NCBI RefSeq assembly: GCF_003285545.1
Contig: NZ_QLNV01000002.1
Location: 1 to 64,000, forward strand
Direction of reading: 5' to 3'
DNA from: Sinomicrobium soli
Lineage (GTDB): Bacteria > Bacteroidota > Bacteroidia > Flavobacteriales > Flavobacteriaceae
Length of the DNA: 64,000 bases
Numbering within the stretch: the stretch's first letter is position 1; the number at the start of each line of letters is the position of its first letter. The notes under the pieces are model-generated. The model worked only from the letters and a program-made list of their open reading frames with translations. It did not search any database and was not told the DNA's origin. Made by a program: the position numbers and the translations under genes. Shown piece after piece: positions 38,002 to 60,222 of this stretch.

Positions 38002-38051
38002 TGCTTTATTACTATTTTTGCGTGTTACAGTTGTCACTGTTTTTTCAGTAT

Positions 38052-39812
38052 CTATTCTTCTACCGGAATTATCTGCATTGCATTGAGGTAGAAAAAGCCA
38101 TTGCCATTATTGTTATTGTCCCCTGCCGTAATATCAATGACGATCTTCCCTTGAGCATCAGGCGATATTTCGTCGGTACAAGCTGTTTCCGAACTATTGC
38201 CGGCAGTTTGTAAACTGACCGCTTCTTCATTGGCTCCGGAAACGGTGTACCTGGTCTCCCTGTTGTCGCTAACTCCCGATCGGGCACCAAAAAAACAGAA
38301 TTTATACGTTTTACCGGTATCCAGTCCTGATAAAGTCAATTGACTTTGTGTTATTTCCATATTTTCCCATACCCCTTTTGCATTTCCGAAGTAAGATTGT
38401 GAAGACACCTCCCCCGGTATAGTCCAATTACCGGTATCGGTAGTATTGGGGCCGCCTGTATTAATTCCATTAAAGCGTTGCGTTATCGTCACCGATATAC
38501 CCGTAAATTCATCATCGCTGTTTTTCAGGTCTTCAATGGAAGTACCTTCTACATGATTATCAAGGGTATTCCACACAGGAGCGGTTCTGGTCCCCAAATT
38601 TATATAAATTGCCGCTCCCGAAGGTACCTCTTCTTCTTCCTCCTCTTCGGGCTGGTAGTCCTCAAGAACAGTAACCGCATAAGGCTGTAAAATGGCTGCA
38701 TGGGCCGAATGTTGTGCAATTTCCTTTTGTATCCCGCTTACACTTTCGGGAGCATAAGCATTTCCTGTCACATTAATTCCCGTAAGTGCTTCAAACCAGG
38801 TACAGGCTGCAGTATATCTTCCGATCCCCATATCCAGGTGGTATCCGTCCCTGTTAAAATAGTCCCCGACAAGGGTGTTCCTGCCATTCTGAATAGCGGT
38901 TCCGGAAGGTATGACAAGGTCAAATTCAAACTCGTTTTCAATCCGGCTTACCGTTTCCATGATCGCCTGGTACATCTGTTCCTGGTCCCGGTCATACCTC
39001 GGGAAATCGGCGTGAGTGGAATTTTGTGCATAGGCCCATGTCTGATGTAAAATATACCCGGTTTCCGTATTCGTGGCTTTTTCTTTGGCATATTCCAGCA
39101 ATCCAGTAAGCGGGGTGATGTAGGTATCGTACTCTCCGGAATGGCCGCTTACCTGTTGAAAGCTTATATAATCCCAGTTCTCATCCAATATCGCCATTTC
39201 TATACTGGCACCAGGCGTTCTCGTTTTATTCCCGTCTGTCGAGATCTTTCTGTAATTATAGGCCGTAGCATTCGATTGTGCATTGTTCCAGTGCCGTTCC
39301 AGGGAAGCCCCCCCTATATAAAGGTTACCAATAACCATGGTTACCCCTTCGGCCCGGGCGAGTTCGTACAGGTTGTTCTCCACCGCATCTTCAGAAAAAC
39401 TGTTCCCGATAGCAAGTACCTTGAGAATACCGTCGTCCCCTCCTACAGTTTCTACATGTATCTCGAAAGACGTGCTTACCGCCCCGTCATTCGAGGAGAA
39501 TTCTACAGTGGTACTACCGTTTCTCAAAGCGGTAATGATGGAAGATTTGTCGTGATTTACAAAAATATCGACAAGGCTCGAATCGCTGGATTTCCACGTA
39601 TACGAACGCCTGGGTTCGGAAACAGGCTCAAATATCGGTCTGACCAATATCTTGTCCCCTATCCCCATGTCTACTGCACTTTCTACACTTAATGTGACCG
39701 ATTGTTCTACTTCTCCATCATCATTGTTGTCGCAGGAAACCATTCCCAGGCAGAAAACACCTATCGCTATTAACCATAACGATAACCTGTGTTTAAAGTA
39801 TAATTGCATCAT
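38052..39812 (-). CDS. Lipoprotein with DUF4886 (SGNH-like) domain
   Basis: A 586-residue lipoprotein (lipobox MVSC). After the N-terminal acidic linker comes an Ig-like domain (about 40-120, bacterial BIG2-type), then a DUF4886 domain (about 130-390) with VLAIGNSFSEDAVENNLYEL, where GNSFS holds the serine of SGNH hydrolases, and later GYHLDMGIGRYTAA with a conserved histidine. A glutamate-rich linker (EEEEEEE) leads to a C-terminal beta-sandwich (about 405-586) with many Asn/Gly. Possible carbohydrate esterase, with the last domain for glycan binding. It is between SusD and FG-GAP protein 1. Confidence 0.8.
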   Translation of the reverse strand: MMQLYFKHRLSLWLIAIGVFCLGMVSCDNNDDGEVEQSVTLSVESAVDMGIGDKILVRPIFEPVSEPRRSYTWKSSDSSLVDIFVNHDKSSIITALRNGSTTVEFSSNDGAVSTSFEIHVETVGGDDGILKVLAIGNSFSEDAVENNLYELARAEGVTMVIGNLYIGGASLERHWNNAQSNATAYNYRKISTDGNKTRTPGASIEMAILDENWDYISFQQVSGHSGEYDTYITPLTGLLEYAKEKATNTETGYILHQTWAYAQNSTHADFPRYDRDQEQMYQAIMETVSRIENEFEFDLVIPSGTAIQNGRNTLVGDYFNRDGYHLDMGIGRYTAACTWFEALTGINVTGNAYAPESVSGIQKEIAQHSAHAAILQPYAVTVLEDYQPEEEEEEEVPSGAAIYINLGTRTAPVWNTLDNHVEGTSIEDLKNSDDEFTGISVTITQRFNGINTGGPNTTDTGNWTIPGEVSSQSYFGNAKGVWENMEITQSQLTLSGLDTGKTYKFCFFGARSGVSDNRETRYTVSGANEEAVSLQTAGNSSETACTDEISPDAQGKIVIDITAGDNNNNGNGFFYLNAMQIIPVEE

Positions 39813-39836: not shown

Positions 39837-41654
39837 TTACCAACCCGGGTTTTGTGTCATGTTGTGATTGACCGATAATTCCCAGTTCGGGATGGGCATA
39901 TAAATATGTTTTTCCTCTACGTTATTACCGGCCTTTGCGGCATGCTGAAAGTTATTGGGGGCGGTTTGTTCTACATATTCCGCCAGTTCCTTCATATGTT
40001 CTACCAGGATCCCCCAACGGATGAGGTCCAGCCTTCTGCAACCTTCAAATGCCAGTTCCCTGGACCTTTCTTCCCGGATAATCCGGCGGAACTCTTCTTT
40101 GCTCCCCGCTGTGACCAGCATATCACTATCCGAAGCCAACACGATCTCTGCCTGGGCCCCTTCCCCGGTATCTGAAGTGATGGTCACCGAGGGTTGTGCG
40201 TCATACATGGTCCCTCTTGACACGATCCTGATATCCGTAATGGCCCCTCCGTTGATTACCGGCTGAAGGCTTAAGGTATCCTGCCCTGCGGAATAGCTGG
40301 CACTGCCCTGTACTTCAATGGAAATATTGGAATTATTGGTATATCCGCTTCCGCCATCGGTTACTACGATGTCTTTTACGGATTTCCCGTCGGCAAAGGC
40401 TCTTCTCCTTACCTGGTTGATATAATCCAGGGCTTTTGAGGTAGGGCCATTGATCTCGTTTTCTGCCTCCGCCGCCATCAAAAGGACGTCGGCATACCTG
40501 AGTAGGGGGAAATTGGTCCCGTTCCAGTTTCCGGGGTTTTGAATTTGTTCAAACTCCCTGCGGTATTTCCCGATATACCGGGAATATATAGCATCCTCCT
40601 GGGCATAATTCTTATCCGGGGCCCTGTTGTTGGCATAAGAATACGGGGCTATGGCCCAGTCCCTTCGCATATCGGCATCATTGTATTTATCGTATAAAAA
40701 AGCATGTATCCTGTGAGCCGGATTGGCAACACCATAGGAGGTTTCCCTGTTTAAAATGCCATTCTGTATCCCCAAAAATCCACGGTTATTGTATATTTCT
40801 CCTGAACCGGTAGTGAAAAATTCCACCTCCCATATACTTTCTCTGGTATCGTATTTATCCTGAATTAAATTGATAAACACCTGGGAATAATCCGGATTCA
40901 GTTCATGATAGCCTCCATTGATCACCTCTTCCGCCCAGTGCAATGCATCTTCATACTTCCCTTCAATATTATTCGGATAGCCTGCCATAAACAGGGAAAC
41001 CCTTGCCAGCATGCCCTGCACGGCAGACCGGGTTACCCTACCCGCATGGTCATAAGCTGTAATTTCAGGCACCATCCCTTCTGCCTCTACCATTTCATTA
41101 TAAATAAACTCATATACCTCACTGGCGGGTACGCGTTCATTAAAAACATCGCTTACAGAAGCCGTAGGTTCCGTCCTCAAGGGGATATCCCCGAAATTCT
41201 GGACCAGGATGAAATGATAAAACGCCCTTAAAAATTTGGCTTCCCCTTTGATGATCTCTCTTTTATCTTCATCCATATCGGGCTTATCTGCATTCACCAG
41301 TACCAGATTGGCCCTTTCCACACCCCGGTATAATGCTCCCCATACACTGTTGGAATTTTCATCGGTTGCACTATAGCTGTAGATTGCCGTACTGTTTACG
41401 GCATTACTGTTAGTCAGATACATTTCATCGGCGGCGTCAAAATCAGTCACCAATGATTTCCCGGCTGCTGAAAACAGGAAGCGTTCTCCCAGAACATTAT
41501 ACACACCAACAAGGGCAGAACTCAATTCTTCTTCCGTGTTGTAATAGTGTGTTGTAGAAATAAAATCTTCAGGATCTCTGTCTAAAGAGCAGCTATGAAA
41601 TACTGTACACAGAAGCAACAGGATACAATATAGTTTTGTTTTCATAATTGACAT
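39837..41654 (-). CDS. SusD/RagB-type surface glycan-binding lipoprotein 1
   Basis: A 605-residue lipoprotein (lipobox FHSC, MKTKLYCILLLLCTVFHSC) that caps the neighbouring SusC barrel and binds oligosaccharide. SusD features are the TPR-like helical N-terminus (ALVGVYNVLGERFLF, AKFLRAFYHFILVQNFGDIP) and the C-terminal segment with EERSRELAFEGCRRLDLIRW. About 80 residues are inserted between the RRRAF helix and EEFRRIIREERSRE, containing GGSGYTNNSNISIEV and SRGTMYDAQPSVTIT repeats, unusual for a SusD. Longer than average (typical 500-550). Confidence 0.92.
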   Translation of the reverse strand: MSIMKTKLYCILLLLCTVFHSCSLDRDPEDFISTTHYYNTEEELSSALVGVYNVLGERFLFSAAGKSLVTDFDAADEMYLTNSNAVNSTAIYSYSATDENSNSVWGALYRGVERANLVLVNADKPDMDEDKREIIKGEAKFLRAFYHFILVQNFGDIPLRTEPTASVSDVFNERVPASEVYEFIYNEMVEAEGMVPEITAYDHAGRVTRSAVQGMLARVSLFMAGYPNNIEGKYEDALHWAEEVINGGYHELNPDYSQVFINLIQDKYDTRESIWEVEFFTTGSGEIYNNRGFLGIQNGILNRETSYGVANPAHRIHAFLYDKYNDADMRRDWAIAPYSYANNRAPDKNYAQEDAIYSRYIGKYRREFEQIQNPGNWNGTNFPLLRYADVLLMAAEAENEINGPTSKALDYINQVRRRAFADGKSVKDIVVTDGGSGYTNNSNISIEVQGSASYSAGQDTLSLQPVINGGAITDIRIVSRGTMYDAQPSVTITSDTGEGAQAEIVLASDSDMLVTAGSKEEFRRIIREERSRELAFEGCRRLDLIRWGILVEHMKELAEYVEQTAPNNFQHAAKAGNNVEEKHIYMPIPNWELSVNHNMTQNPGW

Positions 41655-41740
41655 TTATTTTGTTTTTCGACGGTCTGATGAAATACCCGGATTGATCTGA
41701 CAGTATCGGGTCGGACGGGTATTTCACAATATTTTAAAGA

Positions 41741-44700
41741 TTAAAACGATACATTAACTCCCATAATAATGGTTCTCATCCTCGGATAGGGCGATAGGTC
41801 AAATCCGGGAGTAAGAGGGGTGTGCCTGGTCGAAACTTCGGGGTCTACCCCGGTATACTTGGTCCAGGTATAAAGGTTTTGTCCCGAGACATATATCCGC
41901 AAGGCATTCAGTTGAAGCGTCTCCAGAATGTGATCTCCGAAATTGTATCCCAGGGAAACCGTTTTCAGCCGGATAAAAGATCCGTCCTCAACCAGCCTTG
42001 AAGAATAAAAATTAGCCCCCAGACCATTGAGCCTGGGAATGTCGGTATCCTGGTTATCAAAAGTCCACCGATCTGCCATACTGGCAAACTGGTTGGAGTT
42101 TGTTCCTATAAACCTGCCGTTTTCAAAATTGACCTTATTGGCATTGAAAACATCATTCCCGTAAGAATACTGAAACAACACATTCAGGTCAAATCCCTTA
42201 AACCTAAAATTATTGGAAAACCCCCCGTAGAAATCAGGGTTTGGGTTCCCTATTACCGTATAATCGTCAAGATTGATCTCCCCGTCACCGTTCTGATCTA
42301 CATATTTCGCATCTCCGGGTTGAATATTTGCCCGGGGTGCCCCGTTGGCCGGAAATTCATCCCTCAGCACAAAATCGCCTTCCTCGGTAAGATCGAAATC
42401 ACCGACCTGATAAAGCCCGTCAGCTTCCAGTCCGTAAAACTGGGCAACAGGTTCCCCGATTTTTGCAGTATACACCGAATTATTAACAGACCCTACTATG
42501 GTTATACTCGAGGTTAATTCTTCCTGGTTTTCGGTCAGGGCCAGGACTTTATTCCTGTTAAATGAAATATTGAAATTGGTAGACCACTGAAATTCGGGTT
42601 TACTGATGTTAATGGAGTTGAAAGAAAATTCCAGGCCTTCGTTAGAAACAGAACCCACATTTTTAAAGGCCCGCAAATACCCTGAAGAATTGGGTAATTG
42701 TGCCCGTAACAGAAGATCATTGGTTTCCTTGTAATAATAATCCGCCGTAAAGTTAAAGCGGCCATTCCACAAAGACAGGTCTACCCCGGTATCTACCTGA
42801 TCGGTCGTTTCCCATTTTAATTCCGGATTGGTCAGAACATTAGTGATCGCTCCCAACCGGGGAATTTCATTGCCGAAAGAGTACCCGTTATTAAGTCCGC
42901 TGTTTAATTCTGATAAATAGGCAAAGGTCGAAACCCTGTTATTTCCTGTTTTACCATAACTGACCCTCAGTTTCAGGTCTGATATCACATTGCTCTTTTT
43001 TATAAAGTCTTCCTGTCCCAGTTTATAGGCAAAAGCTCCGGAAGGAAAATAGGCCCATCGGTTTCCCGGCGCAAATTTAGAAGAGCCATCTGCACGAAAA
43101 GAAGCCGTGAACAAGAATTTGTCCATCAAGGTATAATTTACCCTTCCCAGAAAACTTTGTAAACTGAAGCTGTTCTTCTCTGCAAAAATTTCCCTCGGGG
43201 TTCCCTGGTCAAGACCATTCAGGCCCAGATTTTCATTAGGCAACTGGAAAGCACTCATGCCCGAGAGCTCAAACTTATCCAACTGCTGTGTGAAACCGAT
43301 AACGGCATTGAGCTTATGCTTCCTGTTATCCCATTGTTTGTCATAGGTCAATGTGTTTTCATTGGTAAAGACCTTCTTTTTTATGAATCGCCTGCTCCCG
43401 TTTACTCCGATGGAAAAAGGAAAAATAGTACTTCCGGAACGGGTTTTGGAATTGTCAAAAGCATTGTTTTCCTGGTTTATCATATTCACCCCTCCGGTAA
43501 TACTTAACTTCAACCCGTCCAGCAACCTGTAATTTAACCTGATGTTCGTAAAAAGATTTTCACTGATTCTTTCCCTGAATGAATTTTCAAGTTGTAGCTT
43601 GGGGTTGACCCTGAACTGCACCCCCGGGTTAACCTCGGGATCCAGCAACTGGTCTTCAAATTCTATATCATCCTCCAAAGGTGTCGTAACCGGCCTGTAA
43701 GCCCAGATATTATTCATAATATTTGCATTGGCACCTCCATCATCTTCAGAAACAATAGTCCCTTTTCTGTTTACATTGGCATAATTTACATTCAAGTTAA
43801 TATCTACTTTATCATTGATCTTCTGGTCCAGCCTCAGGCGTGCCTGATATCTTTTAAAACCGGTATTTATAAAAATCCCTTTTTGATCAAAAAAAGAGCC
43901 CGATACAGAGTACCTGGTTTGTTTTGTTCCGCCTCTCATAGACAAATTATAGCTTTGAATAGGTGCTGTTTGCATCGATTCTTTATACCAGTCTATGGTT
44001 TTCAGGTTTTTATAGTCGTCCAATGTCCTGCCTACACTGTCGAGATAAATTCTTGTTGCGTATTCCGGGCTGAGTTCCTGTTGCAGTTTTACAAATTCAT
44101 ATCCATCCAGAAGTTCCAGCCTGTTGAGGTCTTCCTGAAATCCCGTATAAGTATCAAACTCTATAACCGGTTTGCCTACATTTCCCGATTTAGTGGTGAT
44201 GACCACTACCCCGTTGGCTCCCCTGGCCCCGTAAATGGCAGTAGCAGAAGCATCTTTAAGAATATCTATGGATGCGATATCGTCCGGATTTAAAAAGCTG
44301 TTGTCATTATCCTCTACAGGGAAACCGTCTACCACATACAAAGGAGAATTATCCTGGGTGATGGAATTTCCTCCACGGATAACTATATTGGGTACACTAC
44401 CCGGTTGCCCGTCATTGGAAGTTACCAGAACCCCGGCAATACGTCCCGCAAGGGCTTCATCGTAGGAAGAAACAGGGGCCTTCTTCAGTTCATCTACATT
44501 TACCTGCCCCACAGAGCCCGTAAGGTCCTTGCGGTTTACCTCACCATAACCTATCACCACTACCTCATCGAGTACATTCAGGTCACTTTTCATAATGGCA
44601 TTGATAACGGCCTTTCCGTTAACCTGTATTTCCTGGGGAACAAATCCCATATACGAAAATACCAGGGTTGCATCAGAAGCGACATTGTCAAGGCTGTAAT

Positions 44701-45010
44701 AACCGTCCATATCTGTCACGGCTCCTTTAGGAACCCCCTTTACAACAACGTTTACTCCGGGTAATGGCATTCCGTCTTCCTCAGCAACAACCTGCCCCCT
44801 GATATCGAGGTGATCCTGCTGGTACAGGAAAGCAGCAGCTCCAGAAACACTTTCGCCTGCGGTAAAGGAAAAAACAGGTAAACTCAACATTCCGAAGACA
44901 AAAAGAATAATGTATTTTCCTTTGAACGAAACTTTCGACAAAACATCAAAACACATCTTCTCCAGTGAGAGAGTATCAATGTTTTCCTGATTGTAATAAT
45001 TTTTTTTCAT
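41741..45010 (-). CDS. SusC/RagA-type TonB-dependent transporter 1
   Basis: A 1,089-residue outer-membrane importer. An unusual 30-residue N-terminal part precedes the signal helix (YIILFVFGMLSLPVFSFTA). Then come a CarboxypepD_reg domain (about 68-150, GQVVAEEDGMPLPGVNVVVK), the SusC signature (LNVLDEVVVIGYGEVNRKD), a plug (ILKDASATAIYGARGANGVV) and a 22-stranded barrel ending in an aromatic-rich strand (IIMGVNVSF). Forms a pair with the SusD encoded after it. It is the first gene of the second module of the locus, preceded by a 357-base regulatory region. Confidence 0.95.
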   Translation of the reverse strand: MKKNYYNQENIDTLSLEKMCFDVLSKVSFKGKYIILFVFGMLSLPVFSFTAGESVSGAAAFLYQQDHLDIRGQVVAEEDGMPLPGVNVVVKGVPKGAVTDMDGYYSLDNVASDATLVFSYMGFVPQEIQVNGKAVINAIMKSDLNVLDEVVVIGYGEVNRKDLTGSVGQVNVDELKKAPVSSYDEALAGRIAGVLVTSNDGQPGSVPNIVIRGGNSITQDNSPLYVVDGFPVEDNDNSFLNPDDIASIDILKDASATAIYGARGANGVVVITTKSGNVGKPVIEFDTYTGFQEDLNRLELLDGYEFVKLQQELSPEYATRIYLDSVGRTLDDYKNLKTIDWYKESMQTAPIQSYNLSMRGGTKQTRYSVSGSFFDQKGIFINTGFKRYQARLRLDQKINDKVDINLNVNYANVNRKGTIVSEDDGGANANIMNNIWAYRPVTTPLEDDIEFEDQLLDPEVNPGVQFRVNPKLQLENSFRERISENLFTNIRLNYRLLDGLKLSITGGVNMINQENNAFDNSKTRSGSTIFPFSIGVNGSRRFIKKKVFTNENTLTYDKQWDNRKHKLNAVIGFTQQLDKFELSGMSAFQLPNENLGLNGLDQGTPREIFAEKNSFSLQSFLGRVNYTLMDKFLFTASFRADGSSKFAPGNRWAYFPSGAFAYKLGQEDFIKKSNVISDLKLRVSYGKTGNNRVSTFAYLSELNSGLNNGYSFGNEIPRLGAITNVLTNPELKWETTDQVDTGVDLSLWNGRFNFTADYYYKETNDLLLRAQLPNSSGYLRAFKNVGSVSNEGLEFSFNSINISKPEFQWSTNFNISFNRNKVLALTENQEELTSSITIVGSVNNSVYTAKIGEPVAQFYGLEADGLYQVGDFDLTEEGDFVLRDEFPANGAPRANIQPGDAKYVDQNGDGEINLDDYTVIGNPNPDFYGGFSNNFRFKGFDLNVLFQYSYGNDVFNANKVNFENGRFIGTNSNQFASMADRWTFDNQDTDIPRLNGLGANFYSSRLVEDGSFIRLKTVSLGYNFGDHILETLQLNALRIYVSGQNLYTWTKYTGVDPEVSTRHTPLTPGFDLSPYPRMRTIIMGVNVSF

Positions 45011-45367: not shown

Positions 45368-46078
45368 TTATCCTTTATTTTTTTCGATTAACGCAATGGC
45401 CTTTTCAAATAAGCGTTCGCCCAGTGTCTGATAATTATGAGGCCTTATCTTCAGGACATTTTCATCCCTTCCGTCATTCAGGTCATCCGTATCCACCCAA
45501 TCATACCGGTCATCCGACTCGGCAACTTTTACCTGAATATCCCTGATCATATCCCAATCGACGTACTCCTTTTTTTTATCTGATCCGAAGTCGTTTAACC
45601 GGCCTATCACCACATTGATATCTTCCCGTTTCAACTGGTCCCTGAACTGCTGGAACAAACCTTTTAAACTTCGTTCATAAACATTTCCGAAACCTTCTTC
45701 AGCATCCGTCTCACCTCCCATCCAGATCACGGTAACGGTTTTCAGGTCCTGCCCTTTTATAAGCGGGTTTACTTCATTGAAAATGGCCCGGAAAAGCGCC
45801 GGTTGGGCTTTAGGCTCATTCCCTGTCAGGGGTTTCCAGTCTTTATACCATCGCCTGATGGCCTGACCTCCCAGGGCACTGCGGACTACTATCACATTAT
45901 CCTTGCCAAATTCCTCTTCCACCAGGGGAGTAAAAAAACTTTCGTAATCAAAAAGGGCCATATTGACCTGACCGGAAAGGATAAACAGGTGTTTTCCTTC
46001 TTCCTCCTGTCCAGAGACAAACGCGGAGCACATAAGGGTTAAGACACATATCAGTAAAGTGGTTGTTCGTGTTTTCAT
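45368..46078 (-). CDS. SGNH / sialate-O-acetylesterase-like protein lacking the usual catalytic Ser
   Basis: A 236-residue secreted protein (signal peptide to residue 22) resembling the SASA/DUF303 carbohydrate-esterase family (PF03629). Block I reads LSGQVNM (34-40), where active members have GQSNM, so the nucleophilic serine is a valine (Val38). Block III reads WMGGETDAEEG in place of WxQGESDA. The Asp...His region is partly kept (VDTDDLNDG and RPHNYQTLGER). It may be an inactive homologue or a binding protein. It is the last gene of the long operon. Confidence 0.7.
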   Translation of the reverse strand: MKTRTTTLLICVLTLMCSAFVSGQEEEGKHLFILSGQVNMALFDYESFFTPLVEEEFGKDNVIVVRSALGGQAIRRWYKDWKPLTGNEPKAQPALFRAIFNEVNPLIKGQDLKTVTVIWMGGETDAEEGFGNVYERSLKGLFQQFRDQLKREDINVVIGRLNDFGSDKKKEYVDWDMIRDIQVKVAESDDRYDWVDTDDLNDGRDENVLKIRPHNYQTLGERLFEKAIALIEKNKG

Positions 46079-46139
46079 AATTCGTCGTTTTTAAGTTAGT
46101 GGTTAAATGGTTTTAAATTTATAATCGGGTATTATTGCA

Positions 46140-48254
46140 TTATTTCTCTAACGATAATGTGATCACTTCGTCAGCCGACCAGTCGGAATACGTGATCAGC
46201 CCGTCATGTATATAGCCTATTTTATATACTCTTCGCAATTTTCTGCTTCCTTCGGTCTGTTTTATCTCTACCCTTACCTCATTATCATCTGCGCTACCGG
46301 TAAAACGATGTAGGGAATATATGCCTTTCTCAAATCCGAAACCGTTCCCTTCATCATCATACAGTGTTCCGGAGGCTTTTCCCTCTTCGTCGGGATTGAT
46401 CAGGAGCACGATTTTCCGGGTGTTGTAATCTTCCGTACTTTGAAAAACCTCATCCGCTATGGGCACAATAGCTCCCGGTCTCAGTTTTACGGTAGCCTGG
46501 TAATCATCCTGTTCTTCTTCAAAAGGAATGGTTTCCCATTTACCTCCGGGCAAATGGGGCCTTTCAGCCCATTGGGGGATGATCAACAGGTCTTCACCTA
46601 ACAAAAAGGTTTCCTCCTCCCCTCTTAAGGACAGGTCTTTTACATCCGCAAAAAAAACAGGCTGCATGACAGGTGTTCCTGCGGTATGGGCCTTTCTGAA
46701 CAGGGTATAGAGATAGGGAAGCAGTTTATACCTTCTGTTGATGGCTTTCCTCGATGCATCTTCTATGGTCTCCCCGAATGCCCAGGGTTCCTGCGAGGTC
46801 GTATTTTTGGAGCTGTGATTCCTGCAAAACGGAAAATACACCCCTATGGCGGTCCAGTGCGCCAGCAGGTCTCCGTCGGCATTTTTGGAAAATCCCCCGA
46901 TATCAGGCCCGTTAAAAGGCTGGCCGGACAGGCTCAGGTTCAGTGACATGGGAACAGACAGTTTCAGATATTCCCATGAAGACAGGTTATCCCCGGTCCA
47001 CGTCGCCGCATATCGCTGCCCGCCGAGGAAATTGGCCCTCGACAGCACAAACGGCCGCTTGCCGGGACTGGCCTTCAATATCCCTTCCCTGCTGGCCTTT
47101 ACCATAAGCATTCCATAAACGTTGTGATAGCGCCGGTGAATATCCTGTGGTAAATCACCCCCGCCCCTATGCAGGTTGGTTTCGGGCATGGTGAAATTAT
47201 CGCTGTCGAAAACCGCCGGCTCATTCATGTCGTTCCATACCCCGTCTATACCCAGTTTCATAAAATCCCCGTACAGGGAGGCCCACCATTTTTGTGTTTC
47301 CGGCCTCGTATAATCGGGAAATACGCAATCTCCCGGCCATACCTCACCAACAAAAGCATTGCCGCTTTGGTCCAGAACCCAATGGCTGCCTTCGGTTCCT
47401 TGCTGATATATACCGTAATCCTCATCGGCCTTTACCCCGGGATCTATCATATACACCGATTTAAAATCCAGTTTATGCAGGTCGCGATTGAGCTTCCGGG
47501 GGTCCGGGAATCCCTGCTTATCAAAAGTGAAAATACGGTATCCGTCCATATAATCGATATCCATCCAGATCACATCGGCCGGTATTTTCCGCTTCCTGAA
47601 TTCCCTGGCAATATAACGCACACTGTCGGAAGGATAGTAAGAATACCGTGATTGCTGATATCCCAAGGCCCAGAGCGGCGGCATAGGAATAGTACCGATC
47701 AGGTCTGCCAGGGCATGCATGACTTCCTGGGGAGAATTCTTTTCGATAATGACCATTCTGAAAGGGGGTCCGTAACTGGTGATCGCGATATCGTCTTTCA
47801 GGTCAAAATCCTGTTTCCATGTATTGTCCGCAAGCACCCCGAACGCAGTGCCGTCAGGCCTTACCCCCAACAACCAGGGATGTGACTGGTACAACCGTTT
47901 TCCTTCGTGCTTTTTATACACATAATTATCGGTATTCCAAAGTTCCACCGAGGTCCCGTTTCTCCGGAGGCTACCCGTAACCTCCCCGTTCCCGTAGAGG
48001 TCGACATCTTCATCAATATCAATTTTTACGGTGCTGTTCTCCCCGTCATAACCAAACTGCGGTATTAACGTCCACTGCCGGGGTATTTTCCCCCTGATCT
48101 CCAATTCTCTTTTTATGGCAAACGAAGGCTGATGACGTTCTGCTTCATAATTTTCGGGATAGAAAACAGCTATATCGTCAGCTATCAGTCCGGACGACTG
48201 GCCCCGGAGCACTAACTGAGCGCCCAAAAACAGTAATAATATGTATTTTTTCAT
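46140..48254 (-). CDS. GH31-family alpha-glycosidase
   Basis: A 704-residue secreted enzyme (signal peptide MKKYILLLFLGAQLVLRG). The N-terminal beta-sandwich (about 20-185) precedes the (beta/alpha)8 barrel, with nucleophile Asp342 in GVWNDMNEP and acid/base Asp422 in ATWTGDNLSSW. WALGYQQSRYSY and DVIWMDIDYMDGYRIF are further GH31 landmarks, and a C-terminal beta-domain ends the chain. GH31 enzymes act on alpha-glucosides, alpha-xylosides and others, so the target sugar is not fixed by sequence. Operon neighbours suggest removal of alpha-linked side residues from a sulfated glycan. Confidence 0.93.
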   Translation of the reverse strand: MKKYILLLFLGAQLVLRGQSSGLIADDIAVFYPENYEAERHQPSFAIKRELEIRGKIPRQWTLIPQFGYDGENSTVKIDIDEDVDLYGNGEVTGSLRRNGTSVELWNTDNYVYKKHEGKRLYQSHPWLLGVRPDGTAFGVLADNTWKQDFDLKDDIAITSYGPPFRMVIIEKNSPQEVMHALADLIGTIPMPPLWALGYQQSRYSYYPSDSVRYIAREFRKRKIPADVIWMDIDYMDGYRIFTFDKQGFPDPRKLNRDLHKLDFKSVYMIDPGVKADEDYGIYQQGTEGSHWVLDQSGNAFVGEVWPGDCVFPDYTRPETQKWWASLYGDFMKLGIDGVWNDMNEPAVFDSDNFTMPETNLHRGGGDLPQDIHRRYHNVYGMLMVKASREGILKASPGKRPFVLSRANFLGGQRYAATWTGDNLSSWEYLKLSVPMSLNLSLSGQPFNGPDIGGFSKNADGDLLAHWTAIGVYFPFCRNHSSKNTTSQEPWAFGETIEDASRKAINRRYKLLPYLYTLFRKAHTAGTPVMQPVFFADVKDLSLRGEEETFLLGEDLLIIPQWAERPHLPGGKWETIPFEEEQDDYQATVKLRPGAIVPIADEVFQSTEDYNTRKIVLLINPDEEGKASGTLYDDEGNGFGFEKGIYSLHRFTGSADDNEVRVEIKQTEGSRKLRRVYKIGYIHDGLITYSDWSADEVITLSLEK

Positions 48255-48329
48255 GTATGATTATTTATAATTCAACCATTGCAAAACAAGCCCGCCAGGC
48301 ATAAAGACCATCTTTCCCGCCATACGGTT

Positions 48330-49826
48330 TCACTTCGAAACCGGCACCTGCCTTCCGGAAAAAAGCAGGGTTAAAACAAATCCCGTAAATAAGATGGTTA
48401 CTGTTCCCAGGACTATGGTCAGGTTGGCGTGAAAAGTACTTTTCATCCCTTCCCACGCTGCGGGAAAGAAAGGAGAAAGGCTCATCCAGCAAATGACCAG
48501 TATCCCGGTTACCACGCTTACAAACGCAAACTTGCCGGTAACCTTCCGGGAAATGAATCCCAATAGAAAAAGTCCCAGTATCCCACCGCTGAAAATAGAG
48601 GATAACGCCCACCAGGCATCCAGTGCGCTGGTTACTCCGTTTAAAAGCAGGGCTGCTCCTATCCCCGTACTCCCCATGATCAGGGAAGATACGAGCAATA
48701 CCTTCATTTCTCCCCCGGCAGACAGGTTTTTCTTAATATAACGCTTGTAATGGTCGGTCAGGATAACGGTTGCCGAACTGTTTATACTTGTCGATATGGT
48801 ACTCATTCCCGCGGCAAAGATCGAAGCTATCAGTAAGCCTGTTATCCCCCTGGGGAGTTCATTAACTATAAAATAGGGATAGATCTTATCAGCATTCTCC
48901 AGCCCCCTCAGATCTTCGGGCAACAGTCCGGGCATACTCTGATAATAGGCAAAAAGCGCGGTCCCGATAAAAAAGAAGAGCAGGGAAACGGGAATATAGA
49001 GCAAACTCCCGAACAAGGTGGAACGCACCGCCTCCTTATTGTTCCTGGCGGTGATATAGCGCTGGATATAGCTCTGGTCTATCCCGAAGTTCTGGAGGTT
49101 GATAAACAACCCGTAAACGAAGATCAGCCAGAAGGTCGATTCCACAAAGTTAAAATCAAAACTTCCCAGGCTCATCTTGTGTTGCTCTTCTGCTATACGA
49201 AAAATTTCCCCTGCCCCTCCGGGTATGGAAAAACAGATCACCAACACCGTAGCGATAGCCCCGCCTATAAGGATGATCCCCTGTATCGCATCGGTCCAGA
49301 TCACCGCTTCTATCCCGCCAAACATGGCATAAATGGTGACGCTCACCCCCGTGAGTATGATTATGGTACTGATATCCCATCCCAGCAGGGCGTTCATGGG
49401 CAGGGCCAGCAGGTAGAGAATTGCCCCCATACGCGCAATTTGTGTAAGCAGGTAAAATGCGGAAGCATATATCCTGGCCCAGAGGCCGAACCTCTGTTCG
49501 AGATAATAATAGGCAGAATTGCTCTGTAAACTTCTGTATAAAGGGACAAAAAACACAACAGCAAGGATTGCCGCCAGGGGAATGGAAAGGCTGAAGACAA
49601 ATCCGTTCCAATCCGACAAATAGGCCTTGCCCGGCAATGCCAGGAAACTGATACTGCTTACAAAAGTGGCAAAAACAGACATTCCGATAGCCCAGGAGGG
49701 TATTTTCCCCCCTCCCTTGACATAGTCATCAGAGGATCTTTTCCTGAACGAAAAGGAAATACCAAAAAGAATTATGGCAAGCATATATATAAAAAAGACA
49801 CTCAGGTCTGCAACGGGTAGCTTCAT
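48330..49826 (-). CDS. Sodium:solute symporter (SSS family)
   Basis: A 498-residue inner-membrane transporter with 13 predicted helices. SSS features include the start (LPVADLSVFFIYMLAIILFG), AIGMSVFATFVSSISFLALP near helix 2 and SIFAAGMSTISTSINSSATV in the Na+-site helix. It imports sugars, sugar acids or sialic acid in other bacteria, driven by sodium. Between the aldolase and GH31 genes, it probably brings monosaccharide products of the locus into the cytoplasm. The start is just four bases after the aldolase stop. Confidence 0.93.
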   Translation of the reverse strand: MKLPVADLSVFFIYMLAIILFGISFSFRKRSSDDYVKGGGKIPSWAIGMSVFATFVSSISFLALPGKAYLSDWNGFVFSLSIPLAAILAVVFFVPLYRSLQSNSAYYYLEQRFGLWARIYASAFYLLTQIARMGAILYLLALPMNALLGWDISTIIILTGVSVTIYAMFGGIEAVIWTDAIQGIILIGGAIATVLVICFSIPGGAGEIFRIAEEQHKMSLGSFDFNFVESTFWLIFVYGLFINLQNFGIDQSYIQRYITARNNKEAVRSTLFGSLLYIPVSLLFFFIGTALFAYYQSMPGLLPEDLRGLENADKIYPYFIVNELPRGITGLLIASIFAAGMSTISTSINSSATVILTDHYKRYIKKNLSAGGEMKVLLVSSLIMGSTGIGAALLLNGVTSALDAWWALSSIFSGGILGLFLLGFISRKVTGKFAFVSVVTGILVICWMSLSPFFPAAWEGMKSTFHANLTIVLGTVTILFTGFVLTLLFSGRQVPVSK

Positions 49827-49829
49827 TAT

Positions 49830-50768
49830 CTATTTATTATTGTTTATATGTGCATTTACTTTATCCCTGAGAAAATCCAGATGATTGCATATGATACGAT
49901 ATTCCTTTTCCCGGAATGCCTGTAAAGGCAAAGCCATAATATTCCTGCACAATCCCAGACCATCAAGAGCGGCTTTTACCCCTTTCAGATAACTGGACTG
50001 GTGTTTTCCTACCGTATACAGATGGTTACTGATCTCCATAACGAGCCGCTGTAGTTCCATAACCCGTACATATTCCTTTTGTACCACGCTTTCATAAAGC
50101 TGCACATACAATTCCGGAAAGAGGTTGGCTCCTCCGCAAATTCCTCCCGATCCTCCCATAAGGGCTGTTTCCGCCAGAATTTCCTCCGGGCCTACATACA
50201 GTGAAAAACCCGGTATTTCCTTTAAATTGAATATGAGGTTCTGAAAATATTTGGAATCTCCCGAACTGTCCTTCAGTCCGATAATATTCGGATGCTGTGC
50301 CAGCCGCATGACGGTTTTAAGCTCGAAATAAATCTTGGTATTGGAAGGCATATTGTAAAGAAACACGGGAAGAGGAGATCTGTCTGCCAGTCCTTCGTAA
50401 TAATCAATGAGTTCTTCCTGCCCCAATGTATAGTAAAAGGGAGGAGCGGAAACTACGGCAGAAGCTCCCAGTTCACCGGCTTTTTCGGCAATTTCCAGGC
50501 TAACCTCGTGAATGGAATCGGTTATGCCCACCAGTACGGGAACCTTATTGTCCACAAGTTGCAGGACTTCCTGCATAAAACGAAGCCTTTTTTCAAGGCT
50601 CAGGCTTGCAGCCTCCCCGGTCGTTCCCAATATAAATATACCGTGTACCCCGCCGTTGACAAGGTGCTCAACCAGTTTCTGTGTTCCCTCCAGGTCTATT
50701 TCCTGTTCCGAAGTCAAAGGAGTTACCATAGGTGGTATAATTCCTTTTATATTTAAAGTATCCTGCAT
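49830..50768 (-). CDS. DHDPS/N-acetylneuraminate-lyase family aldolase
   Basis: A 312-residue class I aldolase-fold protein. Schiff-base lysine Lys166 is in NIIGLKDSSGD, catalytic Tyr138 in FLYNMPSNT, and the GTTGE loop (48-52) binds the pyruvyl carboxylate. This family includes DapA, sialic-acid lyase, KDG aldolase and L-2-keto-3-deoxyarabonate dehydratase. Position beside a sugar symporter and in a glycan locus argues against lysine synthesis and for sugar-acid breakdown. Substrate unresolved. Confidence 0.88.
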   Translation of the reverse strand: MQDTLNIKGIIPPMVTPLTSEQEIDLEGTQKLVEHLVNGGVHGIFILGTTGEAASLSLEKRLRFMQEVLQLVDNKVPVLVGITDSIHEVSLEIAEKAGELGASAVVSAPPFYYTLGQEELIDYYEGLADRSPLPVFLYNMPSNTKIYFELKTVMRLAQHPNIIGLKDSSGDSKYFQNLIFNLKEIPGFSLYVGPEEILAETALMGGSGGICGGANLFPELYVQLYESVVQKEYVRVMELQRLVMEISNHLYTVGKHQSSYLKGVKAALDGLGLCRNIMALPLQAFREKEYRIICNHLDFLRDKVNAHINNNK

Positions 50769-50774
50769 AATTTA

Positions 50775-52199
50775 TTACATATTAATAAGCTTCTCATCTT
50801 TAAAATCAGTATTCTTCAGGCGGTCCTTTTCCACCCGCGCACTCCATTTTTCCAGCATTTTCAACATCTGCCTTACCTTACCGGGATATTTGGCAGAGAG
50901 GTCACCGGATTCCGAAGCATCTTCCCTTATATGGTAAAGTAAAGGCTTAAGGCCGGATTCCCCTGTGATATGATCCAGGTCTTTAAAAGGCCGGACCAGT
51001 TTCCAGTCTCCAAGCCTTACTGCTGCATTATGACTGTAAAACGGTTTATGCCGGTTCCACTGCCAGAATCTGGCTTCGGGCAATTTACTTCCTGAAGTTC
51101 CCTGTAGGATTGCCGAAAGACTTACTCCGTCAAAATCTTTTTTCACCCGCCCGGCAGCCTTCAGCCCGCATATATCTACAAGAGTCGGGAATATATCTGT
51201 AAAGTGTACTACATCGTCAACCTGTCCCGGAGCAAAATGCCCGGGCCAGTAAAACAGCAGGGGAATGTGAATCCCTCCCTCGTATACCGTGTATTTTTTT
51301 CCCTTCTGATCCATGTTGAACCGGGTACCGGCGCCGGGATCCTGACCGTTGTCACTTGCAAAAATGACAAGTGTGTTCTCACTGATCCCAAGCTCTTCCA
51401 GGGTATTTACCAGTTTCTGAAGCCCTTTATCCATGGCCTCTATCATGGCGTACACCTTGGCCGTTTTATCATCAAATCCCTTTTCAAGGTAATGATTTAC
51501 CAGTTCCCGGGGGCCTCCCAGCGGACGGTGAGGGGCAGAGTAGGCCAAATGCATGAAAAAGGGAGTTTCCTTATTGCTTTTTATAAAATTTACGGCATGC
51601 TCCGTAAGCACATCATCGAGATACTCGTTTTTATATTTTTTCCTGTTACCGTTTTCGTCCAGTGTAAAATTGTAATACGTTTTTAAATCGGGGCCAACAA
51701 AGTGATAACTTTCATCAAAACCGCGTTTCAGCGGATGAAAAGGCGGTAACATTCCCAGGTGCCATTTTCCTACCAACGCGGTTTTGTAATTGTTGGCCCT
51801 GAACACATCGGCCATAGTGACTTCACTGGTCTTTAAACTGGTAAACCACGGTTCCGTAGCCATACTCAGACTTACCACCCCGGTCCTGTGCGGGTACTTC
51901 CCGGTGAGCAGGGAGGCCCTTGCGGGAGCACATACCGCCGAACCGGAGTAAGCGGCATTACACCATATTCCTCCATCTTTCAGGGCATCCAGGGCAGGGG
52001 TCCTGTTCAATCCGCCGTTTACCGAAGAAACGTCTCCTATCCCCATATCATCAACCAGGATCAGTATGACATTGGGAGGGTCCTGTGCATATGCTCCGGA
52101 AAACATCCCCAGAAAAACGGTTATCCATAAAATATATTTCAAGCACATATCATTTGTATTAATTCGACTCATTTCCTTTTCCGACATGATCTTTTTCAC
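50775..52199 (-). CDS. Secreted sulfatase, CAPAR-type
   Basis: A 474-residue type I sulfatase. The formylglycine cysteine is Cys90 in VCAPARASLLTG; Ala instead of Ser at the fourth position of CxPxR is uncommon but known. Metal ligands are seen early (LILVDDMGIGD, Asp50/51) and later (FASDNGQDPGAG). It starts with GTG overlapping the previous stop (GTGA), although internal ATGs nearer the signal helix (YILWITVFLGMFSGAYAQ) are possible. Fourth of four sulfatase genes in transcription order, next to the aldolase. Sulfate position cleaved unknown. Confidence 0.9.
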   Translation of the reverse strand: MKKIMSEKEMSRINTNDMCLKYILWITVFLGMFSGAYAQDPPNVILILVDDMGIGDVSSVNGGLNRTPALDALKDGGIWCNAAYSGSAVCAPARASLLTGKYPHRTGVVSLSMATEPWFTSLKTSEVTMADVFRANNYKTALVGKWHLGMLPPFHPLKRGFDESYHFVGPDLKTYYNFTLDENGNRKKYKNEYLDDVLTEHAVNFIKSNKETPFFMHLAYSAPHRPLGGPRELVNHYLEKGFDDKTAKVYAMIEAMDKGLQKLVNTLEELGISENTLVIFASDNGQDPGAGTRFNMDQKGKKYTVYEGGIHIPLLFYWPGHFAPGQVDDVVHFTDIFPTLVDICGLKAAGRVKKDFDGVSLSAILQGTSGSKLPEARFWQWNRHKPFYSHNAAVRLGDWKLVRPFKDLDHITGESGLKPLLYHIREDASESGDLSAKYPGKVRQMLKMLEKWSARVEKDRLKNTDFKDEKLINM

Positions 52200-53647
52200 C
52201 TTTTCACGAGAGGCTCAACAATGGCACCCTGAAGTTTCCGGTGTAGCTCATCCACCACCTTCCGGAATCTTTTTTCACGGGCCAGGTTAATACTCTCTTT
52301 ATCATCGTAGTAATGATCGTAAAGTTCCCGGTCTACAATTTCCCGGGTATCAAAATCGAGCCATTCCGTATACCGCCAGCGGTCGGTCCTTACCGAATAT
52401 CCCATGACATCCGGCTTACCTTTGTAATACATGGGCCGGGGATGCTGGGTAAAAACGGCATCGTTTACTGTTGCATTGCCGTCTTTTAAAACGGGCACAA
52501 GGCTCTTTCCCTGTATACCTTCGGGTTCTTCAATACCGCATAATTCAAGAAGCGTGGGATAAATATCGAGTAATTCTGCCAAAGACCCGGTTTTATGACC
52601 TTTCATGCCTTCTCCGGGCACGGAGATGATAAAGGGTACCCTGGCATCATTCTCAAAATTCGAGTTTTTCCCCCATAAGGAGTGTTCCCCCAGCTGAAAC
52701 CCGTGATCTGACCAGAACACGACAATGGTATTTTTATCCAGCTGCAACCGTTTCAGTTCGCTTAATACCTTTCCCACCTGGGCATCCAGAAACGAGACAG
52801 CCGCCAGGTAACCATGACGAAGTTCCAGTACATCGCTTTCACTCAGCGTATTGGGTTCGCCCCGGAAAAACTCCCAGCTGTCGTGCAGGGCAATTTCCGG
52901 TATCCTTTTGGGCGGATCTCCGTTATATACTGCCGGGATAAGGTCTTTATCATACATGTCCCAATATTTTTCGGGAGCGTTAAAAGGCAGATGCGGTTTC
53001 CAGAAACCCACCGCCAGAAAGAAAGGTTGACCGGGATTTCCTGAAAACCCCTGTAAAGCTTCTACCGCTTTTTGTGCTATACGGCCGTCATAATACGCTT
53101 CATCGGGAACATCAAGTCTTTTTGTCCATTTGGTTCCGGCAGTATTTTCAGGCAGTTTTCCCCTTACCTGCGGCACATCGTCATTGTGTGTCCCGTAATG
53201 CATGACCGGCTCTACACTCCACGATTCCGGGTAATCGGCATGTCCGTCCACATGCCAGTTATGGTATATCTTGCCGATGTCCTGCGTAAAATAGCCGTTC
53301 TTTTTAAATTGTTCGGGAAGTGTTACCACATCATCCGTACGGCGAATGGGAGCCGTCAGATTCCACGATCTTGTATTATCAGGCCTTCTCCCTGTCATCA
53401 CCGATATCCTTGAAGGGGCACAGAGCGCCTGTTGACAATAAGCCTTGTCAAACAAAACACCTTCCCTGGCCAGCTGATCTATATGAGGAGATTTAACCAG
53501 GTCATTACCATAACACCCGAGATCTGTTCTCAGGTCGTCACAGGCAATAAACAGGACGTTATACTTCTCCTGTGCTTTTATGGTCATGGTAAGGCTGAAG
53601 AACAGTACCATCACCTTAAACAATCCGTATCTTGTTTTGTTCATCAT
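52196..53647 (-). CDS. Secreted sulfatase, iduronate-2-sulfatase-like
   Basis: A 483-residue sulfatase. Signal peptide to about residue 25, then FIACDDLRTDLGCYGND, the pattern of the iduronate-2-sulfatase branch. The formylglycine site is Cys76 in LCAPSRISVMTG. Metal-site features are VFWSDHGFQLGEH and an early DD pair (37-38). The end (PLVKR) is short with no extra domain. IDS-like sequence does not by itself prove an iduronate substrate in marine bacteria. Overlaps the next sulfatase by four bases. Confidence 0.9.
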   Translation of the reverse strand: MMNKTRYGLFKVMVLFFSLTMTIKAQEKYNVLFIACDDLRTDLGCYGNDLVKSPHIDQLAREGVLFDKAYCQQALCAPSRISVMTGRRPDNTRSWNLTAPIRRTDDVVTLPEQFKKNGYFTQDIGKIYHNWHVDGHADYPESWSVEPVMHYGTHNDDVPQVRGKLPENTAGTKWTKRLDVPDEAYYDGRIAQKAVEALQGFSGNPGQPFFLAVGFWKPHLPFNAPEKYWDMYDKDLIPAVYNGDPPKRIPEIALHDSWEFFRGEPNTLSESDVLELRHGYLAAVSFLDAQVGKVLSELKRLQLDKNTIVVFWSDHGFQLGEHSLWGKNSNFENDARVPFIISVPGEGMKGHKTGSLAELLDIYPTLLELCGIEEPEGIQGKSLVPVLKDGNATVNDAVFTQHPRPMYYKGKPDVMGYSVRTDRWRYTEWLDFDTREIVDRELYDHYYDDKESINLAREKRFRKVVDELHRKLQGAIVEPLVKR

Positions 53648-53672
53648 TTAGTTATTAGTTGGTTTTAGAAGC

Positions 53673-55187
53673 CTACTTCCCGTTTTTCCTCGGAAACCTG
53701 GCTTCCCTGTCATTTAGGGTTTTTAACAATTCGTTTTTTAACGCTTCCCCTTCGTCTGATTTTATCCTCACTGATTCCGAATGATCCCTGTTCAGGTCGT
53801 ATAACTCGGAGCTTTCACCTTCATAAAAATAGATTAATTTGTGATGGCCTTTTCTGATAGAAGACTGGGGCCTGGTCTGACTGATGTATCCGTCATTAAC
53901 CCCTATTTGTGATCTTGCCTCATCAAATTTTTTTCCTTCGGGATGATAATAGGGAAAATGCCATATAAAAGTTCTGTTTTTTAATGCTTCGGGGGCGTCT
54001 TTATCCAGGAATAAGGAGGTCACGGAAACCCCGTCCAGTTCCGGCCCGGTATTGAGATCATTCACAGACCCCCCGGCCAGTTCTATAAAAGTGGGAAAAA
54101 AATCGGTTTGTATCAAAGGTGTGTCACATACCGATCCCTTTTCGATTTTTCCCGGCCATCGGGCAATCATGGGCACCCTGACCCCGCCTTCATACAGGTT
54201 CCATTTGCTTCCCCGGAACGGACCGTTACAGGCAAAAGCGGGGTTACCCCCATTGTCTGACGTAAACACAATCAAGGTATTTTCATCAAGCCCCAGCACA
54301 TCTACCGCTTCCAGTAATTGCCCTACGTAATGATCGAACAGCTCTACAAAAGCAGCATATCTCGCCTGCTTTCCCGGTATTTTCCTTCCTTGTTTTTTTC
54401 CTTTCTCTATATATTTATCGATCAGCCACTCTACATTATCACCTATAGGGGTATGTACATAATAATGGCTTACATACAAAAAGAAAGGGGTTGTATCGTC
54501 TTTGTGATCTTTTAGGAACTGAATGGCTCCTTCGGTCAGAGCATCTGTCGGAAAGTCTCCTTCCCGGGTATATTTTTTCAGTTCCCTTTTCAATATACTC
54601 TTTTGATAGGGATGTGAACCGTAAGTCTCCCTGCCCCAGTCAAACCCCTGTTGAAGGGGGCCGTGAGTCGGGCTCCAGCCCAGGTACCTCTTATAATGGG
54701 GCGCTACATGCCATTTACCTGCTATCCCCGTAGTATACCCGTATTTTTTCAAGGCTTCGGCTATCGTGACCTCATCCAGAGGCAAGGTCAATGTATATGG
54801 TGGCGGTATTAAAGCCTTATCCGCAAAACGCTGTAACCAGCCGGGATCATCCCATGAGTATTTCTCACCTTCACTCATGGTCACAAATTCGAAACCCAAT
54901 CGTGCGGGCGATTTTCCGGTTAATATCGCTGCCCGCGAAGCCGTGCATATAGGCGCAGGAGCATAGGCACTCCTGAAACGCATTCCCTGCGTGGCCAGCC
55001 GGTCTATATTGGGGGTTTCTATAAAATCATAACCGTATTCCTTCCCGAAGGCAGCTACGTCAGAATACCCCAGGTCATCGGCATAGATCAGTATAATATT
55101 AGGTTTTTCTCCATGCTGTGCATATCCGTTTATTACCATAAGCAGCAAACACACCAGACCAAAAATTTTATCCGATACCCGTATCAT
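53673..55187 (-). CDS. Secreted sulfatase, CTASR-type
   Basis: A 504-residue sulfatase with signal peptide (cleavage near GYAQ, residue 24). Formylglycine site Cys81 in ICTASRAAILTG, a CxASR form also processed by maturases. Metal and sulfate residues are in LIYADDLGYSD (Asp37/38) and VFTSDNGGNPAF. C-terminal Trp/His-rich loop RTFIWHFPYYHPEGKKF may contact the glycan. It follows the first sulfatase after only three bases, so they are probably translated from the same message. Confidence 0.92.
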   Translation of the reverse strand: MIRVSDKIFGLVCLLLMVINGYAQHGEKPNIILIYADDLGYSDVAAFGKEYGYDFIETPNIDRLATQGMRFRSAYAPAPICTASRAAILTGKSPARLGFEFVTMSEGEKYSWDDPGWLQRFADKALIPPPYTLTLPLDEVTIAEALKKYGYTTGIAGKWHVAPHYKRYLGWSPTHGPLQQGFDWGRETYGSHPYQKSILKRELKKYTREGDFPTDALTEGAIQFLKDHKDDTTPFFLYVSHYYVHTPIGDNVEWLIDKYIEKGKKQGRKIPGKQARYAAFVELFDHYVGQLLEAVDVLGLDENTLIVFTSDNGGNPAFACNGPFRGSKWNLYEGGVRVPMIARWPGKIEKGSVCDTPLIQTDFFPTFIELAGGSVNDLNTGPELDGVSVTSLFLDKDAPEALKNRTFIWHFPYYHPEGKKFDEARSQIGVNDGYISQTRPQSSIRKGHHKLIYFYEGESSELYDLNRDHSESVRIKSDEGEALKNELLKTLNDREARFPRKNGK

Positions 55188-55190
55188 GTC

Positions 55191-56735: not shown

Positions 56736-56738
56736 TGT

Positions 56739-58706: not shown

Positions 58707-58731
58707 GGGTACAATATTATAATTTATGGTA

Positions 58732-60210: not shown

Positions 60211-60222
60211 AAATGTTATAAT

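Follow-up and report, generated by a model that had tools for sequence, protein, structure and literature searches.

A phage-tail-type beta domain inserted in a loop of a SusD-family lid protein from Sinomicrobium soli

Introduction

In the usual picture, SusD forms a bare lid, and extra glycan capture is attributed to separate lipoproteins. The described SusD/RagB proteins (PF07980 and PF14322; for example BT1762 and 3ihv) share with the protein studied here their fold, a lipobox, a susC gene located directly upstream, and conserved positions of the forms LRY.DVLL and ER..E...R.DL.RW. For BT1762, the published account gives D41, N43, D67, W85, R368, and Y395 as ligand contacts (PMC7782687). 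In BT_3984, TPR4 belongs to the group of variable TPRs for which contacts with other members of the PUL were proposed (PMC2954216). An additional module within a Sus surface protein is described for the amylase SusG, which carries an inserted CBM58 and for which a mutant lacking CBM58 has been assayed (PMC11267923).

The other described proteins that bear on this work are GSGYT-repeat proteins of cyanophages (phrog_2885, phrog_5342, phrog_460, and phrog_701), which are baseplate wedge, tail fiber, head closure, and virion structural proteins. Here we analyze a SusD-family protein encoded within a 64,000-nucleotide stretch of Sinomicrobium soli DNA (contig NZ_QLNV01000002.1, hereafter the window), in which the SusD lid itself holds a module that it shares with phage tails and that was repeatedly acquired and/or lost at one particular loop. 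The locus connects a repeat domain that is widespread but little described with a machine that has been studied in depth.

Results and discussion

A SusD protein with an extra beta domain

The host protein is a member of the SusD/RagB family, as established by Pfam scores above cut-off, its fold, its lipobox Cys, and the adjoining susC gene (Table 1). It matches SusD_RagB with an E value of 8.6e-43 (147.5 bits; cut-off 23.1) and SusD-like_3 with an E value of 6.5e-28 (98.7 bits; cut-off 27), and Cys22 of the lipobox is invariant across a 25-row alignment. An AlphaFold2 model of the whole protein based on a 25-row alignment (pLDDT 85.0, pTM 0.87) retrieved SusD entries when compared with solved structures by using Foldseek, with 3ihv as the best match (E 4.2e-27, TMt 0.83). 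A SusC-like gene is located directly upstream of the susD gene in 20 of 20 stretches from relatives.

Table 1. Positions of the features discussed in the text. Positions refer to the window except for L092 and L093, which belong to genomes G712 and G668, respectively.
Feature	Position	Strand	Basis or remark
Overlapping long open frame, 499 aa	18649-20148	+	
Overlapping long open frame, 463 aa	18751-20142	-	
PUL-like block with two SusCD pairs	34630-63363		
GH28	34630-36042	-	Pfam
FG-GAP protein	36046-38037	-	Pfam
DUF4886 protein, directly downstream of susD (24 bp gap)	38052..39812	-	Pfam, E 6.4e-105
Predicted SusD-family lipoprotein, 605 aa, insert host	39837..41654	-	Pfam, Foldseek, lipobox Cys22
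Two-unit GSGYT-type beta domain, residues ~424-508	40131..40385	-	PHROGs, leave-one-out profile, AlphaFold2, viral structure matches
Repeat unit 1 (KSVKDIVVTDGGSGYTNN...)	40257..40385	-	Alignment A1; long low-confidence loop ~451-460
Repeat unit 2 (GGAITDIRIVSRGTMYDAQPSVTI...EGAQAEIVL)	40131..40256	-	Alignments A1 and A3
susC-susD gap, 86 bases	41655-41740	-	Inverted repeat GAAATACCCG/CGGGTATTTC
SusC-type TonB-dependent transporter, presumed partner barrel	41741..45010	-	Plug and CarbopepD_reg_2 domains
Upstream PUL genes	45368..63363	-	Pfam: SASA esterase, GH31, SSF symporter, DHDPS-like, four sulfatases, FG-GAP, second SusCD
Site-B SusD L092	8710-10641	+	
Site-B SusD L093	9029-10915	-	

The original prediction, made without database searches, held that the region between the RRRAF helix and the EFRRIIREERSRE helix of this protein forms an extra domain that resembles beta-rich GSGYT-type repeat units of surface and phage tail proteins and that would lie on the outer face of the SusCD lid, where it could add glycan contacts; it quoted three motifs from that region. 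The two helices correspond to residues 406-419 and 519-533 of the AlphaFold2 model, respectively, and all three motifs indeed reside between them, within about 85 extra residues whose strands span positions 426-506. BT1762 has a loop of only about 24 residues at the equivalent place (about chain positions 461-484 of 5lx8), whereas the window SusD holds its 85-residue beta domain there. The BT1762 ligand contacts given above fall outside this loop, although an offset between the numberings of the two sources is possible, and by our own mapping onto BT_3984 the loop follows TPR4.

The insert is predicted to be well ordered, as opposed to the unstructured state that would have spoken against the domain. 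Blocks covering residues 421-510 have an average pLDDT of about 87, with a weak loop at residues 451-460 (pLDDT 61), and the insert modeled by itself (pLDDT 84.2, pTM 0.73) adopts nearly the same strand pattern as in the full-length model. When the insert model was compared with predicted viral structures (BFVD), 11 matches were obtained at E values up to 0.001 (best 9.2e-5; TMq 0.63-0.73), including a baseplate hub and tail lysozyme as well as a right-handed beta-helix protein. Comparison of the same model with solved structures yielded a best E value of 2.7 with Foldseek and a best Z of 2.3 with VIA-align, which does not imply that the fold is novel. AlphaFold2 confidently predicts the insert to be an all-beta domain, and its model resembles predicted phage tail proteins.

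Sequence searches agree with this assignment. In PHROGs, the insert matches families of phage tail, baseplate, and connector proteins and of virion proteins (best E 8.1e-9), and a tblastn search matched 35 phage records (best E 7e-6). Among the 30 of these 35 records that were listed, the phages are named Synechococcus, Prochlorococcus, Cyanophage, or Marine, and the matched genes are mostly tail-fiber, baseplate, and structural genes. Phage and bacterial repeat sequences in alignment A1 are 26-43% identical to the window insert, and the cyanophage proteins resemble it in having two tandem units, the same motif order, and a similar predicted fold; however, they are virion parts, whereas the window protein is a transporter lid. 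The insert matched nothing in NCBIfam, and sequence comparison with solved structures gave nothing convincing (best E 0.057).

We also considered whether the insert could be an artefact, arising by a fusion error or by a chance match of low-complexity sequence. The sequence is rich in Gly, Ser, and Thr, and a direct comparison of units 1 and 2 gave a score that was reached by 419 of 2000 shuffles, which is not significant, such that the two-unit repeat structure is visible only through the family alignment (A1). However, a leave-one-out repeat profile, built from ten other repeat sequences with the window SusD excluded, scored the insert at 55.7 bits, whereas the best of 500 shuffled inserts reached 10.9 bits and the reversed insert 7.6 bits. 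This profile matched none of 28 insert-free SusDs, and its scores for 22 carriers range from 92.7 down to 2.1. Given also the single open frame, the confidently predicted fold, and the recurrence of the same architecture in a second family, where at least 16 genomes show it (see below), an artefact is extremely improbable, and we take this explanation to be refuted. The GC content of the insert is 51.4% compared with 46.2% for the whole susD gene, a difference that could reflect the abundance of Gly in the insert.

Distribution of carriers

The genome of S. soli has 80 PF07980 matches and one repeat match, and thus the insert is far from being present in most SusD proteins, an outcome that would have undercut its proposed special character. 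The insert profile finds matches in four of 299 genomes sampled from its own family, and only in the window genome is the match in a SusD; the other three lie in frames 3546, 805/806, and 1265 residues long, which were classed by frame length alone. We rejected the idea that the insert is general in SusDs of Bacteroidia, as the repeat was found by profile A1 in 18 of 395 genomes of the class, and in a SusD only in the window genome and in genome G307, with one frame per genome examined.

The family of G307, which may be Chitinophagaceae, is considerably richer in carriers. The repeat occurs in 33 of its 244 genomes and resides in a SusD-like frame in at least 16 of the 244 (G307, G594, G615, G629, G668, G687, G689, G712, G728, G792, G794, G795, G807, G810, G816, and G818). 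In 14 of these 16 genomes, the insert occupies the same loop as in the window SusD, and in two it occupies another loop; the matched frame of G792 has only 342 residues. Matched frames of 669-707 residues in G631 (contig C18), G716 (C10 and C210), and G719 (C12) stand outside the count of at least 16.

Searching with the N-terminal part of SusD revealed one more carrier, L118 in G597. Its 714-residue frame holds a diverged GSGYT insert and, by eye, a CBM5/12-like stretch. With the repeat profile, L118 reaches just 2.1 bits, so that counts based on profile searches are too low for inserts of this sort. Of the 28 sequences that best match the N-terminal part across 116 genomes of the G307 family, five have frames exceeding 600 residues, and all five are carriers. 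An insert of this kind is absent, as judged by eye, from one distant SusD of Chitinophaga varians. Plasmid records with SusD relatives number 76, and of the ten listed, nine stop at residues 419-438 of the window SusD and one spans residues 3-605 at 21% identity.

Carriers are few within each genome. Relative to PF07980 matches, they number 1/80 in the window genome, 1/33 in G307, 4/119 in G810, 2/111 in G795, and 2/50 in G818, where the values for G810 and G795 rest on 119 first-look candidates that were scored. The insertion of a phage-tail-type domain in the window SusD is thus real, rare, and recurring. We found no description of a GSGYT-type insert in SusD in the open-access literature searched. 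Separately, several contigs of G716 hold 17 repeat matches, many in frames of 2000-4000 residues, indicating that the repeat also serves in very large proteins of this family.

Insertion sites and evolutionary history

In the loop used by the window SusD and most carriers (site A), the insert is preceded by the RRRA helix, whose end is of the (F/Y/W)-G/S type, and in most carriers it is followed by a D-A-D-(L/V)-type stretch that precedes the C-terminal helix. An ADLPAGL-type stretch is found at the corresponding place in many non-carriers. The corresponding loop comprises 14-36 residues in 20 of 28 non-carriers, whereas the remaining eight were labeled by a corrected rule under which fewer than 70 residues counts as no insert; the homologs L003 (42% identical), L010, and L011 have a short loop at the insert position. 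Two SusDs, L092 and L093, hold repeats in an earlier loop (site B), between RRDWNI(A/S)P and GKWRREYE.

Carrier labels were taken from the insert, and trees were built on the SusD core. A quick tree of 50 cores needs nine state changes for the insert. A careful tree of 46 cores, which leaves out window_492, L011, L053, and L009 as long or near-duplicate rows (L053 being a carrier), needs eight, and with the site-A label its well-supported branches alone force three; L063 (G792) is absent from both trees. A single clade of the 19 site-A carriers is rejected (p-AU 0.002), as is a single clade of 21 carriers of both sites (p-AU 0.005). Because the core trees reject one carrier clade, the insert has been gained and/or lost several times.

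The core of the window SusD (P0001) is placed next to those of the two site-B SusDs, L092 and L093, at moderate support (88/77); the sequence most similar to it, at 45% identity, is a non-carrier. Close relatives were found in 17 of 116 genomes of the G307 family (E 1e-75, N-terminal part as query) and in two of 199 genomes of its own family, itself included (E 1e-60, whole protein as query). This excess in the other family fits horizontal transfer, with the proviso that queries and limits differed, and falls short of proof. Recent transposition was considered and rejected, as no direct repeats of 14 nt or more bracket the insert.

We also compared the divergence of the insert, measured together with some 20 flanking residues, with that of the core. 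In close pairs, insert and core identities are 71.4 versus 78.0%, 73.9 versus 77.7%, 71.2 versus 73.4%, 63.6 versus 68.5%, 69.1 versus 59.5%, 63.6 versus 69.6%, 60.0 versus 63.2%, and 59.4 versus 58.6%, and thus the insert appears to diverge about as slowly as the core. In three distant pairs, insert identity falls below that of the core (37.6 versus 46.5%, 35.0 versus 45.7%, and 30.8 versus 43.2%), and in a fourth the order is reversed (61.8 versus 53.1%). The near-core conservation in close pairs argues for a kept function over a drifting spacer, although insert identity is partly held up by the repeat's own motif.

These data bear on the proposal that the insert is merely tolerated as a decoration and hardly affects transport, perhaps being beneficial through surface variability, such as by altering recognition by phages or predators. 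The patchy distribution with repeated gain and/or loss, the use of two insertion loops, and the few carriers per genome are what this proposal would predict. However, the slow divergence seen in close pairs, together with the retention of an open reading frame and of the repeat motifs in the aligned site-A carriers, points the other way, and we consider it quite unlikely.

A candidate glycan contact module

Some relatives carry inserts of a longer type (eight inserts, 161-181 residues with flanks). A weak match to CBM_5_12 (PF02839) is nested inside the second unit in all five of these eight that were tested (E 3e-4 to 6e-3; 17-21.1 bits, below the cut-off of 26.2), at a place corresponding to a loop within unit 2 of the window SusD. 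In contrast, none of four short relatives tested has such a match, nor has the window insert, which matched no Pfam family at E values up to 10. The long-type insert of L078 yielded no matches to phage records by tblastn at E 1e-3.

We favor a reading in which a normal SusD lid carries a self-contained GSGYT domain as an accessory contact module that helps to catch or hold glycan, and we assign it a probability of roughly 0.4. The insert is most likely an accessory contact domain on the lid, and its target is probably glycan. The folded extra domain, computed to sit in a loop of the lid between two helices, would be exposed and project from the lid, and could there add contacts that help to capture or retain glycan chains, with import itself left to SusC and the SusD core. 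Cyanophages use the same class of domain in tail fibers, baseplates, and connectors, and bacteria also carry it in large proteins.

Glycan contact is favored by the nested CBM5/12-like match of the long inserts, by the near-core conservation of the insert in close pairs, and, by analogy, by the SusG-CBM58 precedent (PMC11267923), where an extra module likewise lies within a Sus surface protein. Note that SusG is an enzyme with a CBM of another family, whereas the window protein is a lid. Several observations count against glycan contact. Trp is missing from the window insert, and Phe and Tyr occur once and three times, respectively (counted over a 96-residue stretch), which leaves no obvious aromatic platform for sugar; the CBM5/12 matches do not reach the Pfam cut-off, and the short inserts tested lack them; the phage proteins with the repeat are largely annotated as structural; and in three of four distant pairs the core is better conserved than the insert.

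The insert looks like a reusable surface part that is common to distant bacteria at one loop. A bolder extension, which we think unlikely, is that SusCD lids of Bacteroidota carry a swappable specificity slot, in which adhesive domains of the phage-tail type, some with a nested CBM, would be repeatedly transplanted into fixed SusD loops to serve as the importer's own capture arm in place of a separate glycan-binding lipoprotein. Carriers and non-carriers offer a natural comparison for testing the role of such additions to the lid.

Gene neighborhood

The susD gene belongs to a block that resembles a single PUL, and the insert is present in one SusD of two; the second SusD has no repeat match. 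The presence of four sulfatases, GH28, GH31, a SASA esterase, a DHDPS-like protein, and a second SusCD pair suggests that the target of the PUL is a sulfated, acetylated glycan with uronic acids. By its position, the DUF4886 gene shares an operon with susD.

In many relatives, the gene that follows susD encodes a DUF5017 protein. Using a profile made from the genes of nine carriers, we found DUF5017 after SusD in 14 of 20 site-A carriers, two of two site-B carriers, and 25 of 28 non-carriers, most of the latter being checked over approximately 1.1 kb downstream. A link between the insert and a partner gene was therefore rejected: DUF5017 follows carriers and non-carriers alike, and so it marks a SusD clade. 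The carriers without DUF5017 in the stretch examined are L074, L079, L081, L085, L086, and the window SusD, which has DUF4886 in its place. The next gene encodes a BNR-type protein in L079, a beta-helix protein in L086, and a DUF4838 protein in L074 and L085. No paper on DUF5017 together with SusD was found in the open-access literature searched.

These neighborhoods are relevant to another explanation, namely that the insert is a protein-docking or spacer element that brings the lid into contact with other surface lipoproteins of the utilisome or restricts how the lid moves, with no contact to sugar. Consistent with docking, DUF5017 is missing somewhat more often in site-A carriers (6/20) than in non-carriers (3/28), most phage matches to the repeat carry structural annotations, and TPR4 of BT_3984, which precedes the mapped loop, is one of the variable TPRs proposed to contact PUL members (PMC2954216). 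However, no partner gene tracks the insert, most carriers keep the downstream gene of non-carriers, and the CBM5/12-like match in the long versions suggests sugar over protein contact. We find docking or spacing rather doubtful, and retain the accessory glycan contact module as the preferred reading.

The gap between susC and susD contains an inverted repeat that folds at -18.2 kcal/mol (z -3.0 versus shuffles) and perhaps tunes the expression of SusC relative to that of SusD. Elsewhere in the window, two long open frames overlap on opposite strands (Table 1).
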